51,502 nucleotides of DNA from Prevotella sp. Lineage in GTDB: Bacteria > Bacteroidota > Bacteroidia > Bacteroidales > Bacteroidaceae. The notes below the pieces were generated by a model. That model ran no database searches. It was not told the origin of the DNA and worked only from the letters and a program-made list of their open reading frames with translations. The stretch is taken from positions 1 to 51,502 of the forward strand of contig JAFZUS010000204.1 of the NCBI GenBank assembly GCA_017618275.1. Reading direction: 5' to 3'. The position numbers were made by a program, and so were the translations under genes. This document shows positions 11,400 to 32,091 of this stretch, piece after piece (positions within the stretch are counted from its first letter, which is position 1; each line of letters begins with the position of its first letter).

Positions 11400-11430
11400 G
11401 CCACAGATTATCATAGATTATCACAGATTT
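11400..11430. repeat. CACAGATT-type repeat, site 2, between divergent promoters
   Basis: CCACAGATTATCATAGATTATCACAGATT is written in three units of about 10-11 bp. It fills the interval between two divergent -7 boxes (11384-11391 minus, 11435-11442 plus), so the upstream region of both promoters consists of repeat sequence. Confidence 0.7.
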
Positions 11431-11461: not shown

Positions 11462-12334
11462 ATGAAAGGTATAGTATTAGCCGGTGGTAGCGGCACGCGC
11501 CTCTACCCCATCACAAAGGGTATCAGTAAACAATTGATTCCGATCTTCGACAAACCGATGATCTATTATCCCATCTCCGCCCTCATGCTGGCAGGCATCC
11601 GTGAGATTCTGATTATCTCAACCCCACACGACCTGCCCGGTTTCCGCCGTCTCCTCGGCGACGGTTCTGATTTCGGTGTGCATTTTGAATATGCCGAACA
11701 GCCATCACCCGACGGACTGGCACAGGCCTTCATCATCGGCGAGGAGTTCATTGGCGACGACTGCGCCTGCCTCGTCCTGGGTGACAATATCTTCTATGGC
11801 TCCGGCTTCACTGGTCTGCTGCGCCAAAGCGTAGAGAATGCGGAGAAACACGGACTTGCCACCGTCTTCGGCTACTATGTGAACGACCCAGAGCGTTACG
11901 GCGTGGCGGAGTTCGACAAGGATGGCAACTGCCTCAGCATCGAGGAAAAGCCCGAGCATCCCAAGTCCAACTATGCCGTTGTGGGGCTCTATTTCTACCC
12001 CAACAGTGTGGTGGATATAGCCAAGCACATCAAGCCTTCCGCCCGCGGAGAACTGGAGATCACCACTGTCAATCAGGAGTACCTCGCCCAGCAGAAACTC
12101 AAGGTACAGACCCTGCAGCGCGGATTCGCCTGGCTCGATACCGGTACCCATGACTCCCTCTCCGAAGCCTCCACCTTCATTGAGGTCATCGAGAAGCGTC
12201 AGGGACTGAAGGTCGCCTGTTTAGAGGAGATAGCCTTCAAGCGTGGCTGGATCACCAAGGAACAACTTGCCGAAGTCGCCAAGCCTATGGCCAAGAACGA
12301 CTACGGCAAATACCTCCTCAGCCTCACAAAATAA
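11462..12334 (+). CDS. rfbA: glucose-1-phosphate thymidylyltransferase
   Basis: 290 residues, the normal length. The N-terminal nucleotide-binding signature [13 protein letters not shown] is intact. [10 protein letters not shown], the GDNIFYG metal/substrate region and the C-terminal tetramer region (KRGWIT) are all recognisable. The enzyme makes dTDP-glucose from glucose-1-phosphate and dTTP, the first step to dTDP-L-rhamnose for surface polysaccharide. rfbD, the last enzyme of the pathway, is 12 kb away at 24222-25082; rfbB and rfbC are not in the window. A 189-bp modular repeat element begins 4 bp after the stop codon. Confidence 0.96.
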
Positions 12335-12337
12335 GTC

Positions 12338-12526
12338 ACTTTACGGTTGTTAAGACGTAGGGAACAGGGGAAAGAGACGTTCGATACAGGGGTAAAGTGC
12401 CTTTGGAACAGGGATAAAACCCGTTTCCTTCGAATCGGCAGCGGGCGTGGACATAATCAGCAGCGGCCGCTGCTCATATCGGCAGCGGGCGGGGATTATA
12501 TCAGCAGCGGTCGCTGCGTACCAATA
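12338..12526. repeat. 189-bp modular repeat element, copy A
   Basis: A 26-bp leader (12338-12363) is followed by three 22-nt units beginning ACAGGG (12364, 12386, 12408) and a 4-nt joint TCGA. Four more 22-nt units then begin ATCGGCAGCGG or ATCAGCAGCGG (12434, 12456, 12478, 12500). Alternate units contain GCAGCGGCCGCTGC-type palindromes. The whole element occurs again in inverted orientation at 31903-32091, with identical length and 14 mismatches by hand alignment. It fills the gap between rfbA and the GHMP-kinase gene. A short open frame crosses it but is not convincing as a gene. Confidence 0.9.
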
Positions 12527-12533
12527 ATAGACA

Positions 12534-14468
12534 TTAGATAGAGAATGCGGCGACGGCGGCGGTAAGGGCTTGGGGGTTACCCATGTCGTACATACGACCT
12601 TGCAGGCGTACACCCATCATGCCACTGCGCTTACGCACAGCCTCAAGGGCGGAGGTTAGTTCAATCTCCGTAATATGGTCGCCATCGATCTCCTTCTGCA
12701 TGATATCCTCGTGCAACTGGGCAAAGACCTCGGGAGTGAGGATATACTGGCCGAAAACGCTGTAATACTCTTTCTCACCATCCTTGTTGCGCAAACCTAA
12801 GAATTCCTCGGCATAACTTGCTTTCGGTTTCTCCATCATGACAGACACGTTGAGGAGAGTATGGGCCTTGTCCTCCCATACACCATGCAGGATGCCGTAA
12901 CGGCTGACCTCGGCAAGAGGAATCGGATGGATGCTGACCATCAGTGAGTTGCAGCGTTCATATTCCTCAACCATCTGGAGGGCACAGGGCTTGTTGGAAT
13001 CGCTACGATAGAGAGTGTCGCCAAGCAGCAGAAGCACGGGCTCGTTGCCGGCAAACTGGGCGGCCTGATAGACAGCATGACCAAAGCCGCGCTTCTCGCG
13101 CTGATAGACATAGCGGAGGCGCTTGCCGACATCGAGGATATGATTCTCGTACTCCTGAGCCTCTGGATTGAGTTTGCGCAGATGCTCCTCGGACAAGGGA
13201 CGCTCGAAATAATCGGCATACTGCTGACGTTCCTCCTCACTGCCCAATACAAGACAGATTTCCTCAATGCCGCTTCGGATAAGTTCTTCAAGCAGGATCA
13301 GGATAACAGGACGCACCATTCCATCTGGACAGGGAATGGGGAAGAAATCCTTCTTCAGGGCACGCGTGGCGGGATAAAGACGGGTACCGAAGCCCGCCAC
13401 GGGGATGATGGCCTTGCGTACGGTATGAACGGGTTTCAGCGTAAGGGAGTAAGCCCTCATGCCCTGCGCGTTCAAATAGTCGACCAACTGGTGCTGGGTC
13501 TCCTCGCTACGGGCCAGGAACTGCACGGAGCCGTCGCCATGGGAACCGACACCCTTGCCACCCCATACTAAAGGCTGGATATTAGGATCCTGCAGCACGC
13601 TATGTAGTTTAGGCGACCAAAGGGCCGGTGACATCGGGGCCACCTTCTCGTCGAATATGGCCTCCGCCTCGGTCATCAACTTGCCCAATGCCTCCGCATC
13701 ACCGTTAGCCATATACTGGATGGCACGGTTGACGATCTCGATGTTCAACCGTCCCAGCGCGTCATGCTCTGCCTGTTCTTCCTCATTACTGGCGAAGGGA
13801 TAGGCCTTGTTCAGATCGGAAAGAATCCTAATCGTGTCCTTCTCGGCACAGAGGTCGGCAAAGACCCAGTAGAGATGTGTCTTCACATTGAGCGAGCGCA
13901 CCTCTATCTCATCACCGTCGAAGGTCATCAGATTAGGTTTCACACCGAAGGCACAGGCCTGGTCCAGACGACCGCAACGGCTGCTGGTGCGCAGTTCGCC
14001 CACGTAGGCGATGTTCATCTCGCCCAGGGTGTTGAGATTCAGATTATATAATAAGTTGAACGCACGCGCGACGAGTACACAGATGGCTGCCGAACTGCTG
14101 AGACCGCTCTTCATGGGGAGCGTCATCCCCGTAATCTTGATACGGACACCGCCAACCTTATACCATTCGAGCATATAAGAGGCCACGCCCGCACAATAGC
14201 AGAAGAAGGAACCGCTCTTGGCGATGCGCTTCAGTTCGAGTTCGTCCATGCGACAGGAGAAGTCCTGCCATAGAGTATCAATCTCAGGAGCAGTACTATA
14301 CAACTCAAAGATACTGGACTTCTCGACTTCGGCATAGATGCCTTGCTCAATACCCGTTACGATAGCGGCACCAGGAGCGATATCGGCATTCATCGTACGA
14401 TAATGGCCCGCCCAGTCGGTATGTTCACCAAAGAGGCACAAGCGCCCAGGAACAAATAGTTTCATCAT
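12534..14468 (-). CDS. bifunctional GHMP sugar kinase / UTP-sugar-1-phosphate nucleotidyltransferase
   Basis: 644 residues in two parts. Residues 1-~350 are a GHMP kinase: the start PGRLCLFGEHTDWAG, the ATP-binding PMKSGLSSSAA near 120, and the C-terminal glycine-rich motif GGKGVGSHGDGS near 305. Residues ~355-644 resemble GalU/UTP-glucose-1-phosphate uridylyltransferase: KAIIPVAGFGTRLYPATRALKKD, LLLGDTLYRSD and a late GRMYDMGNP. One chain could therefore phosphorylate a free sugar at C1 and then activate it to an NDP-sugar, as Fkp does for fucose. Here the kinase comes first, the reverse of Fkp, and the transferase half is GalU-like. The substrate (galactose, a uronic acid or another sugar) cannot be read from the sequence. 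Confidence 0.85.
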   Translation of the reverse strand: MMKLFVPGRLCLFGEHTDWAGHYRTMNADIAPGAAIVTGIEQGIYAEVEKSSIFELYSTAPEIDTLWQDFSCRMDELELKRIAKSGSFFCYCAGVASYMLEWYKVGGVRIKITGMTLPMKSGLSSSAAICVLVARAFNLLYNLNLNTLGEMNIAYVGELRTSSRCGRLDQACAFGVKPNLMTFDGDEIEVRSLNVKTHLYWVFADLCAEKDTIRILSDLNKAYPFASNEEEQAEHDALGRLNIEIVNRAIQYMANGDAEALGKLMTEAEAIFDEKVAPMSPALWSPKLHSVLQDPNIQPLVWGGKGVGSHGDGSVQFLARSEETQHQLVDYLNAQGMRAYSLTLKPVHTVRKAIIPVAGFGTRLYPATRALKKDFFPIPCPDGMVRPVILILLEELIRSGIEEICLVLGSEEERQQYADYFERPLSEEHLRKLNPEAQEYENHILDVGKRLRYVYQREKRGFGHAVYQAAQFAGNEPVLLLLGDTLYRSDSNKPCALQMVEEYERCNSLMVSIHPIPLAEVSRYGILHGVWEDKAHTLLNVSVMMEKPKASYAEEFLGLRNKDGEKEYYSVFGQYILTPEVFAQLHEDIMQKEIDGDHITEIELTSALEAVRKRSGMMGVRLQGRMYDMGNPQALTAAVAAFSI

Positions 14469-16080: not shown

Positions 16081-16126
16081 GCCACAGATTTCACAGATTT
16101 TCACAGATGCTTTGATTTACACAGAG
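16081..16126. repeat. CACAGATT-type repeat, site 3
   Basis: GCCACAGATTTCACAGATTTTCACAGATG, then TTACACAGAG, lies between fmt and the small ORF. Its right end reaches into the last codons of fmt (stop at 16117-16119), so the fmt C-terminus is partly encoded by repeat sequence. Confidence 0.75.
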
Positions 16127-17555: not shown

Positions 17556-17603
17556 TTGTCTGTGAAAATCAACAATCTGTGAAAATCTGTGTAATCTGTG
17601 GCT
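17556..17603. repeat. CACAGATT-type repeat, site 5
   Basis: TGTCTGTGAAAATC, AACAATCTGTGAAAATC and TGTGTAATCTGTGGCTA on the plus strand. Its right end provides two bases of the clc stop codon (TAG on the minus strand, 17602-17604), and its left end lies 7 bp from the GxxExxY ATG. Confidence 0.8.
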
Positions 17604-24212: not shown

Positions 24213-24241
24213 AGCCACAGATTACACAGATTTACACAGAG
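24212..24241. repeat. CACAGATT-type repeat, site 7
   Basis: AGCCACAGATTACACAGATT followed by TACACAGAG. It touches the prfC ATG on one side. On the other it encodes the last residues of rfbD (SLCKSV) and its TAA stop (24222-24224). Confidence 0.85.
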
Positions 24242-29590: not shown

Positions 29591-29651
29591 TCATCTGTGT
29601 GTAATCTGTGGTCATCTGTAAAATCTGTGGCCATCTGTGAAATCTGTGGCT
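29591..29651. repeat. CACAGATT-type repeat, site 8 (longest)
   Basis: Six ATCTGTG units follow each other with a 9-10 nt period: ATCTGTGTGTA, ATCTGTGGTC, ATCTGTAAA, ATCTGTGGCC, ATCTGTGAA, ATCTGTGGC. They begin directly after the glk stop and run towards a stem-loop. Confidence 0.85.
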
Positions 29652-29849: not shown

Positions 29850-29995
29850 TCGAGCCCCTCTTCCCCTTCGGCTATGGTCTGAGTTACACCTCCTTCGCCA
29901 TCGACAAGCCCCTATATATAAATAATAAGGTACAGGTACGCGTAAGGAACACGGGAAAGTATCAGGTGATGGTGGGCAACGGCTCACAGGGGTAA
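29849..29995 (+). pseudogene. C-terminal relic of a GH3 beta-glucosidase
   Basis: In frame from 29849 the translation reads IEPLFPFGYGLSYTSFAI and then a short beta-rich tail ending GNGSQG before TAA at 29993. PFGYGLSYT-F is the hallmark at the junction of the GH3 C-terminal domain and its fibronectin-like tail. Everything upstream (some 700 residues of a normal GH3 enzyme) is missing and is replaced by the 115-bp repeat. No start codon or active site remains. Confidence 0.75.
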
Positions 29996-30024
29996 TAAGA
30001 CGGTCACTGTTCTGGAGTGCGTTT

Positions 30025-30138
30025 CAATTTGCGTATAGGCGCACAGTCGTTTGCGTATAGGCGAACGGTCGTTTGCGTATAGGCAAACGATAGAGAGATA
30101 GGCATCCTTCCCCTTTTACCCTTAGTCTTTTCCCCTGC
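30025..30138 (-). repeat. 22-nt modular repeat element C
   Basis: Read on the minus strand: two 22-nt units starting GCAGGGG and AAAGGGG (30117-30138 and 30095-30116), then a 4-nt joint TCTA (30091-30094). Three 22-nt units with TTTGCCTATACGCAAA or close variants follow (30069-30090, 30047-30068, 30025-30046). The plan (CAGGGG units, 4-nt joint, then a second family of 22-nt units able to form hairpins) is the same as in elements A and B, but the second-family sequence is different. Confidence 0.75.
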
Positions 30139-30177
30139 TAGTACCAGTACAGTCCCCCTTCGTGACTTCGTACGAAA

Positions 30178-30727: not shown

Positions 30728-31891
30728 ATGAAAAAGGTATTATTTACTATCGCATTGATGCTCCTGCCAATGCTGGCAAGCGCCGATGCCGTGGAAATCG
30801 GCGGCATCTATTACTATTTGTACAGTGAGACAAAGACTGCTGTAGTAACGAGCAATCCGGAAAAATACTCTGGTAGTGTGGATATACCAGAGAAGGTCAA
30901 ACCTGAAGAAACAGAAACAGAGTACAGCGTGACCGCCATTTTCAACCGCGCTTTCGAGTGTTGCAGCGACCTGACTTCAGTTACCATCCCAGGCAGCGTG
31001 ACATCCATCGGCGTTTATGCTTTCAGTGAATGCAGCGGCCTGACTTCGATTACCATCCCTGGCAGCGTGGCATCCATTGGAGAATTTGCCTTCTACGGTT
31101 GCAGCGGCCTGACTACTATTACGGTGGATGAATCTAATCCGTATTTCAAGAGCGAGGAAGGCGTGCTGTTCAGCAAGGACGGAACGACGCTCATTACCTA
31201 TCCCATTGGTAAGACTGAAACTGCATATACTATCCCCAACAGCGTGACATCCATCGGCATAAGAGCATTCTTAGGTTGCAGCAGCCTGACTTCGGTTACC
31301 ATCCCCAACAGCGTGACCTCCATTGGCGATAGGGCTTTCTATGATTGCAGTGGTCTGACTTCGGTTACCATCGGCAACAACGTGACATCCATCGGCAGAT
31401 ATGCTTTCTTGGGTTGCAGCGGCTTGACTTCCATAACCATCCCCAACAGCGTAACGACCATCGACGGTTATGCCTTCCGCGGTTGCAGCGGCCTGACTTC
31501 AGTTACCATCCCAGCCAGCGTGACCACCATCGAAGAATATGCTTTCCGTGAATGCGAAGGCCTGAAGTCGATAACAATCGTCGGCAACGAGACATCCATC
31601 GGCCATTGTGCTTTCGCATATTGCAGTGGCCTGACAGATTTCTATTGCTATGCGAAGGAAGTGCCAGAAACTATGAATTCAGTTTTCAAAGGCTCGAATA
31701 TTGAACAAGTTACGCTGCATGTGCCGGAGGAGGCGATAGAGGCATACAATGCTGTAGAGCCCTGGAGCAACTTCAAGGAAATCGTTGAACTGGTGGACGA
31801 ATCCAAGTTTGACCTGAACGGCGACGGCGTGGTGAATGCCGCCGACGTGGTGACGCTGGTGAACCACATCATGGGCAAGAAAGCGGAATAG
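30728..31891 (+). CDS. secreted BspA-like leucine-rich repeat protein with dockerin-like tail
   Basis: 387 residues. Signal peptide 1-~20 (MKKVLFTIALMLLPMLASADA). From ~60 to 330 there are about nine LRR_5 units of 23 residues (CSGLTSVTIPNSVTSIGDRAF type), one interrupted by a ~30-residue insert with YFKSEEGVLFSKDGTTLITYP. The last 35 residues contain DLNGDGVVNAADVVTLVNHI, a single dockerin-type calcium-binding repeat often found at the end of secreted Bacteroidetes proteins. BspA-like proteins are surface-exposed and act in adhesion. Downstream of the stop is repeat element B. Confidence 0.92.
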   Translation: MKKVLFTIALMLLPMLASADAVEIGGIYYYLYSETKTAVVTSNPEKYSGSVDIPEKVKPEETETEYSVTAIFNRAFECCSDLTSVTIPGSVTSIGVYAFSECSGLTSITIPGSVASIGEFAFYGCSGLTTITVDESNPYFKSEEGVLFSKDGTTLITYPIGKTETAYTIPNSVTSIGIRAFLGCSSLTSVTIPNSVTSIGDRAFYDCSGLTSVTIGNNVTSIGRYAFLGCSGLTSITIPNSVTTIDGYAFRGCSGLTSVTIPASVTTIEEYAFRECEGLKSITIVGNETSIGHCAFAYCSGLTDFYCYAKEVPETMNSVFKGSNIEQVTLHVPEEAIEAYNAVEPWSNFKEIVELVDESKFDLNGDGVVNAADVVTLVNHIMGKKAE

Positions 31892-31902
31892 TATAGTACA
31901 AA

Positions 31903-32091
31903 TATTGGTACGCAGCGACCGCTGCCGATATAATCCCCGCCCGCTGCTAATATCAGCAGCGGGCGCTGCTGATTATGTCCACGCCCGCTGCTGATTCGAA
32001 GGGAACGGGTTTTATCCCTCTTCCAAAGGCACTTTTCCCCTATAACCAACGTCTCTTTCCCCTGTTCCCTATATCTTAACAACCGTAAAGT
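31903..32091. repeat. 189-bp modular repeat element, copy B (inverted relative to A)
   Basis: On the minus strand it has the same order as copy A: leader, three ACAGGG-type 22-nt units, TCGA joint, four AGCAGCGG-type 22-nt units. Length is identical to A and 175 of 189 positions match in a hand alignment with no gaps. It lies between the convergent LRR and RND genes, ending 3 bp before the RND stop codon. Confidence 0.9.

Follow-up and report, generated by a model that had tools for sequence, protein, structure and literature searches.

A dispersed repeat of Prevotella with two adjacent 22-bp minisatellites, probably a MITE-like mobile element

Between two convergent genes on a Prevotella sp. 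contig (JAFZUS010000204.1, assembly GCA_017618275.1; the 51,502 nt analysed are referred to here as the window) lies a short region of 22-nt tandem units which, when this single copy is read alone, resembles a unique regulatory element. The question raised is whether it is one. By Pfam families, the upstream neighbor is a nucleotidyltransferase gene (RmlA-like) that ends at 12334 and the downstream neighbor a convergent GHMP kinase/nucleotidyltransferase gene that ends at 12534. An earlier note on this DNA described CAGGG starting at 12365, 12387 and 12409 followed by four units of a second family starting at 12434, 12456, 12478 and 12500, and all of these are present in the sequence, the unit positions confirming that two 22-nt families are adjacent. 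The joint between the families, given there as 4 nt, is by the same coordinates 3 nt long (12431-12433). The two alternating types of right-hand unit that were reported are full palindromes (12456 and 12500; GCAGCG-NN-CGCTGC) and half palindromes (12434 and 12478; GCAGCG-NN-CGKGGA, one arm having become CGGGGA-like), with every unit starting (A/G)GCAGCGG. The core of the range assigned to the element, 12338-12526, holds, but its ends include a few flank bases, as other copies bound the repeat at ~12339-12522. No protein-coding role is apparent, in agreement with the description of the region as non-coding. The features in the window are:

12339..12522, + strand, dispersed element copy 1 (alignment of 11 copies; Pfam on the flanks)
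12353..12418, + strand, left array, three 22-nt units around CAGGG(G) (TRF period 22)
12434..12455, + strand, right array unit 1, half palindrome GCAGCGGGCGTGGA
12456..12477, + strand, second unit of the right array, a full palindrome GCAGCGGCCGCTGC whose arms are the same in all 11 copies and in which a single centre base varies
12478..12499, + strand, right array unit 3, half palindrome GCAGCGGGCGGGGA
12500..12521, + strand, fourth unit of the right array, a full palindrome GCAGCGGTCGCTGC, after which the element ends sharply with GTAC(C)
29930..30150 (approximate extent), - strand, a second kind of element with other unit letters and a similar plan, 22-nt dyad units at 30028-30089 beside a G-run part, at the third lag-22 peak of the window
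31907..32090, - strand, element copy 2, 91% identity, with a BspA-type LRR gene on one side and a convergent AcrB-type transporter gene on the other

The periodicity is real. Self-identity within 12339-12526 is 0.518 at lag 22 and 0.486 at lag 44, dinucleotide shuffles of the same sequence give a mean of 0.255 at lag 22 (sd 0.033), with none of 5000 reaching 0.518, and none of 2000 shuffles reached that value at any lag from 10 to 50. TRF likewise reports period 22, at 12353-12418 and 12433-12510. A lag-22 scan of the 51.5-kb window has three strong peaks, 0.533 at copy 1, 0.473 at copy 2 and 0.449 at ~29.9-30.3 kb, with 0.371 and 0.353 the next values listed. Tandem repeats of other kinds are also present in the window, namely 69-nt coding repeats (30960-31546) in a gene of the BspA-type leucine-rich repeat kind, which also matches dockerin weakly, and ~10-nt repeats of the CACAGATTTT/AATCTGTGAA type at 11402-11429, 16083-16108, 17574-17600, 24216-24240 and 29591-29650.

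The element is not single. A search of the window's own genome (G000) with a 206-nt query identified 11 dispersed copies of ~184 bp, the other ten 89-94% identical, plus one secondary inverted match inside a copy, and the end pattern GCAGCGNNCGCTGCGTAC, with up to two mismatches allowed, has 11 matches at the same copies and one in the backward control. The region is one copy of a dispersed, apparently mobile repeat and not a unique element. When the copies are aligned, one end is sharp, at GCGTACC, the other lies near CTTTACGGTTGTTAAG and the flanks are unrelated; in two copies (C206, C179) the leader end is missing. Across four genomes, 22 of 28 copies are clear of open frames of at least 100 aa in a mechanical ORF list and six overlap one (C210, C206, C29, G007:C20, G007:C2 and G022:C13). 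Ten of the G000 copies have two called neighbors, which are convergent in four cases, divergent in three and co-directional in three, and no orientation relative to the neighboring genes is shared among the copies. A short (~184 bp), non-coding, dispersed sequence present in 11 copies has these hallmarks of a miniature inverted-repeat transposable element (MITE). Inspection of the G000 copies by eye revealed no terminal inverted repeat and, among the flanks of all 11, no consistent target-site duplication; an AATAA or similar run, also noted by eye, is beside both ends of three copies and absent from the rest. The units are arranged head-to-tail with no spacers and so do not form a CRISPR array.

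Related genomes provide evidence for movement. Junctions were fetched from three relatives. In two (G013 and G348) a short spacer that lacks the element follows the end of the rmlA-like gene, which makes them empty sites for this one locus of the 11. In G013 the spacer has a plain hairpin and T-rich tail, in G348 (L402) 18-nt tandem units, GAAGAGCCGGAGATGACG, occupy the place of the element, and the third junction, in G143, has other sequence and another neighbor gene. In RUG12065, several copies are located between inverted repeats, ~39 nt long in the clearest case; self-comparison identified two such pairs, of 39 and 36 nt, and further inverted-repeat pairs enclose arrays. A 27-nt end pattern has 58 matches in this genome versus none in the control, and the pairs formed by these matches include some that enclose 95 bp without an array. 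The inverted repeats in RUG12065 may be those of a different MITE that carries the array as a passenger. The ends are CTTTACGG and GTACC in G000 and GGTAATGATATAGCAGTTGACC in RUG12065. The 95-bp mini-elements (L234, L239, L244) have the same GGTAATGATATAGCAGTTGACC ends as the array-bearing element. Neither a parent transposon nor a mobilising enzyme was found; among the 58 end matches in RUG12065, several of which are near contig ends, no IS-sized pair was recognised by position.

Because 11 similar copies with sharp ends occur at unrelated places, because relatives have empty junctions and because copies differ by whole 22-bp units, the element is probably a dispersed, MITE-like repeat that does not move autonomously and contains a pair of adjoining 22-bp minisatellites; we give this reading a probability of roughly 0.7. 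A transposase or recombinase supplied in trans would move the element, and units would be gained and lost by slippage or unequal exchange.

One candidate for such an enzyme is a RAYT, a Y1 HUH transposase, which would make the element a palindromic repeat of the REP/BIME kind. The units are palindromic and the copies many, the sole PF01797 match of G000 is 313 nt from an element copy, and in RUG13587 one element match lies ~1.6 kb from one of two RAYT loci. The PF01797 gene of G000 has, however, its own repeat, CACATGGGGACAG, on both sides, no GCAGCG palindrome is present within 1.5 kb of either RAYT locus in RUG13587, where other repeats flank the genes, and the element is present in G032, where no PF01797 match reaches E ≤ 0.001. 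In RUG12065 one element copy lies at the point where the frame of a Y1 transposase is cut short (of the 121 profile positions, 4-98 are matched), an arrangement in which the element interrupts the RAYT frame. With other repeats flanking the RAYT genes in two genomes and an interrupted frame in the third, mobilisation by a RAYT was rejected as highly improbable. REP/BIME sequences resemble the element in being palindromic and numerous in a genome, sometimes in tandem, and are described in PMC3733652 as 20-40 bp units tagged GTAG or CGTC, the GTAG types being tied to RAYT genes; here the pitch is a constant 22 bp and the RAYT genes examined carry other repeats. The Y1 (IS200-like) transposase gene of G000 (L024 880-1719, - strand) with its CACATGGGGACAG flanks is perhaps a separate RAYT/REP system, and the two Y1 transposase loci of RUG13587 (L115 1330-2100 and L124 1350-1970) are bordered on both sides by their own repeats, of the CCCCGGAGGGG type and the CCCAGGGC/GCCCTGGGC type.

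The nearest published precedent, BrickBuilt of Porphyromonas gingivalis, is a MITE whose units of 23 nt are arranged in tandem, with a leader and a tail, and which has 19 intergenic copies in one genome (PMC4596501). The earlier note knew of no named element with this plan; BrickBuilt is a named kind whose plan is similar. Both are dispersed and intergenic, with spacerless, imperfect tandem units of variable number between a leader and a tail, and with predicted stem-loops (PMC4596501). BrickBuilt has, however, one family of 23-nt units, whereas here two adjacent families have a pitch of 22 with full and half palindromes alternating, and its terminal inverted repeats are like those of IS5-family ISPg elements and start GAGACC, in contrast to G000, where no such repeat was seen, and to the ends in both G000 and RUG12065. 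Nucleotide matches to BrickBuilt are reported to be limited to P. gingivalis and P. gulae, apart from low-homology hits to the terminal inverted repeats (PMC4596501). As unit length, unit sequence and ends all differ, the Prevotella element is of the same kind as BrickBuilt but is not a member of it. MITE464/PgRS of P. gingivalis is similarly a MITE with internal tandem repeats, with units of 41 nt rather than 22, and 41-, 23- and 22-nt tandem repeats in strain W83 are attributed to other authors in the same source, without exact locations (PMC4596501). No paper on 22-nt arrays in Prevotella was among the matches listed in a search of open-licence PMC literature. A minisatellite-bearing MITE is thus known from P. 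gingivalis.

The right half of the element has matches in 27 of 398 genus genomes at E ≤ 0.001, G000 and 26 others, with two candidates scored per genome and four genomes matching only at ~1e-4 to 8e-4. With the 206-nt query, four of 60 relatives searched match, including G000. The element is abundant in two metagenome-assembled genomes, with at least 42 matches in RUG13587 (G083; 40 candidates scored of 121) and at least 40 in RUG12065 (G275; 40 scored of 74), a few of the matches being secondary hits in one place. Both equivalences were established from sequence identity. An exact-pattern scan returned 93 stretches, and of the 80 listed 76 have titles naming Prevotella, Prevotellaceae or, in one case, Bacteroidales, many of them of ruminant origin by title; the remaining four (two Streptomyces, one Cupriavidus, one other bacterium) were inspected and judged to be chance matches. 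The pattern was found in no viral contig and the element matched none of 72,556 plasmid records and no phage record, and an origin from phage, plasmid or virus was dropped for this reason. Plasmid iterons are also tandem sites of ~22 bp, at which initiator molecules bind next to one another, whereas the copies here are dispersed on contigs with ordinary genes.

The pitch is held while unit number changes, as the earlier note had proposed should be looked for. In the 11 G000 copies, which were not chosen by pattern, 33 of 34 core-to-core steps are exactly 22, and copy C179 has one extra left unit. Over 93 copies the count is 264 of 272, for which ~182 of 190 is the fair figure, since the search pattern itself fixes one step in each of 82 copies; the 'other' group in this count retained four chance-match stretches and a doubly counted array of L160. 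Copy G007:C14 has 5.6 left units, and in several species the left half, with its G-runs, also steps by 22 although its letters have drifted far. The alternation of full and half palindromes is similarly present in most copies from RUG12065 and RUG13587, which were picked by a pattern that holds one half and one full unit. Homologues with irregular unit spacing, which would have spoken against the element as described, were not encountered.

Within the units, the arms of both full palindromes are invariant in all 11 G000 copies and the centre bases vary, the commonest letter being present in 8, 7 and 7 of 11 at three of the four positions. The cooperative protein binding that had been suggested from the spacing is compatible with invariant dyad arms and variable centres. 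On the mobile-repeat reading, the pitch might be held because each unit, a GCAGCG-NN-CGCTGC dyad or its half version, would be a docking site for proteins that bind side by side about two turns apart; the protein might be the enzyme that mobilises the element or a DNA-binding protein of the host. We regard this docking step as tentative, and lowered our confidence in it when a recheck of non-coding DNA, described below, showed our case for a selected pitch to be non-discriminating. Relaxed B-DNA makes two turns in ~21 bp, so that 22 bp is not an exact fit, and this also counts against docking.

A related proposal is that the arrays serve as binding platforms for a nucleoid or regulatory protein of the host, so that the element would be domesticated and its spread incidental. 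This would account for the invariant dyad arms, for one pitch with unrelated unit sequences, and perhaps for two arrays in G016 that end in a flipped unit, as judged by eye. The distribution of the element is nonetheless patchy (the 27 of 398 genomes), some species are almost without such arrays outside their own element and there is no common orientation to neighboring genes, and we consider this role unlikely.

The element could alternatively be transcribed and function as RNA, its hairpin chain serving as a terminator, an RNA stabiliser or a small RNA. The + strand folds better than shuffled sequences (z -4.2), four G000 copies are between convergent genes and G013 has its plain hairpin with T-rich tail at the same junction. 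The - strand folds less well (z -2.5), several other 22-nt units have little dyad symmetry, and over the 11 copies the covariation term is only -0.53 kcal/mol, with both-sided change in 2 of 47 pairs. The regularly spaced RNA hairpins suggested in the earlier note are favored by the + strand fold and gain little from the covariation. A terminator was rejected, as a scan of 12200-12700 found no terminator-like site, and so was a known RNA family, with no Rfam match at gathering score in the window and two microRNA hits far below cut-off. A function as RNA is, on this evidence, improbable.

The pitch extends beyond this element. The second kind of element in the window has a second copy on a different contig of G000 (G000:C123:340-472), 81% identical and with G-runs spaced 22/22; it occurs near GTCACA/TGTGAC palindromes (window 29930-30150; L088 ~320-460). 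To place the pitch in the genus, samples were drawn from G016 and G024 (20 stretches of 20 kb each, from single-contig genomes chosen for completeness), from G000 (382,576 bases, mostly from copy-bearing contigs with the copies avoided, and so not a random draw) and from 19 other genus genomes (241,767 bases), with 719,063 bases from other families of the order, ~82-84 kb of it non-coding, as control. Non-coding parts were called with a simple purpose-made gene finder, two versions of which gave 98,682 or 46,768 non-coding bases for the mixed sample with the same lag-22 counts, and diverged tandem similarity was defined as 28-38 of 44 positions. Lag 22 has 31 such cases in the genus samples and lag 44 has 25, mostly from the same arrays; at each of the remaining lags between 13 and 60 there are 0 to 4. 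The lag-22 cases are distributed as 11 in G016, 11 in G024, 8 in the mixed genus sample and 1 in G000, with 1 in the other families. The difference between the genus and the other families (p = 0.008 or 0.003 with the two gene-finder versions) is modest evidence, as the control is small and the 31 cases are not independent. Once the element family is set aside, RUG12065 has no diverged lag-22 array in 264,970 bases, RUG13587 has 1 in 112,373 and other MAG loci have 1 in 148,839, so that the pitch belongs to particular elements rather than to whole genomes. In G024, several arrays are within dispersed elements that are alike over 370-630 bp, in a search confined to 250 bp on each side, and that have inverted repeats.

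The units that share this pitch are otherwise unrelated. Thirty-two unit sequences from 10 species, a partial list hand-picked from TRF output, form 25 clusters at 15 of 22 matching, the 99.9th percentile of shuffled pairs, and two or more unlike 22-nt arrays are often side by side (G000, G119, G024, G027, G032). One pitch common to unrelated units in many species is not explained by ordinary slippage, and it becomes testable which cellular component measures 22 bp. Duplication of any sequence by a process of fixed size, such as paired nicking at a distance of 22 nt, might leave a pitch with no function. The adjacent, unrelated arrays and the 25 clusters are as such a process would give, and in non-coding DNA lag 22 accounts for about the same share of near-identical 44-nt windows as of diverged ones (3 of 9 versus 31 of 93, small numbers). 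This comparison does not discriminate, and fixed-size duplication is therefore kept as a rival with its odds raised. Short near-identical duplications (at least 20 of 22, non-coding) have, however, no clear peak, lags 22, 41 and 44 accounting for five each of 28, and perfect 16-mers in the whole sample, coding included, are found six times at lag 22, six at 21 and five each at 10, 16 and 41, again small numbers. We consider fixed-size duplication an improbable explanation. The pitch is set either by selection or by duplication in 22-nt steps, and the age comparison does not separate them. A row of protein docking sites would be a simple reader of the 22-nt grid. More broadly, and this we regard as rather doubtful, many unrelated families of mobile or domesticated elements could be built on one 22-bp grid because a conserved machine works by spacing and not by sequence; candidates would be a DNA-binding protein that assembles in rows, a transposition complex common to these families or an enzyme whose DNA duplications come in 22-bp steps. 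Two further arrangements were noted in the genus: G032 (L044, L046) has three dissimilar 22-nt arrays clustered in a few hundred bases, and G016 (L280-L299) has a smaller group of tandem arrays with a period of ~41.
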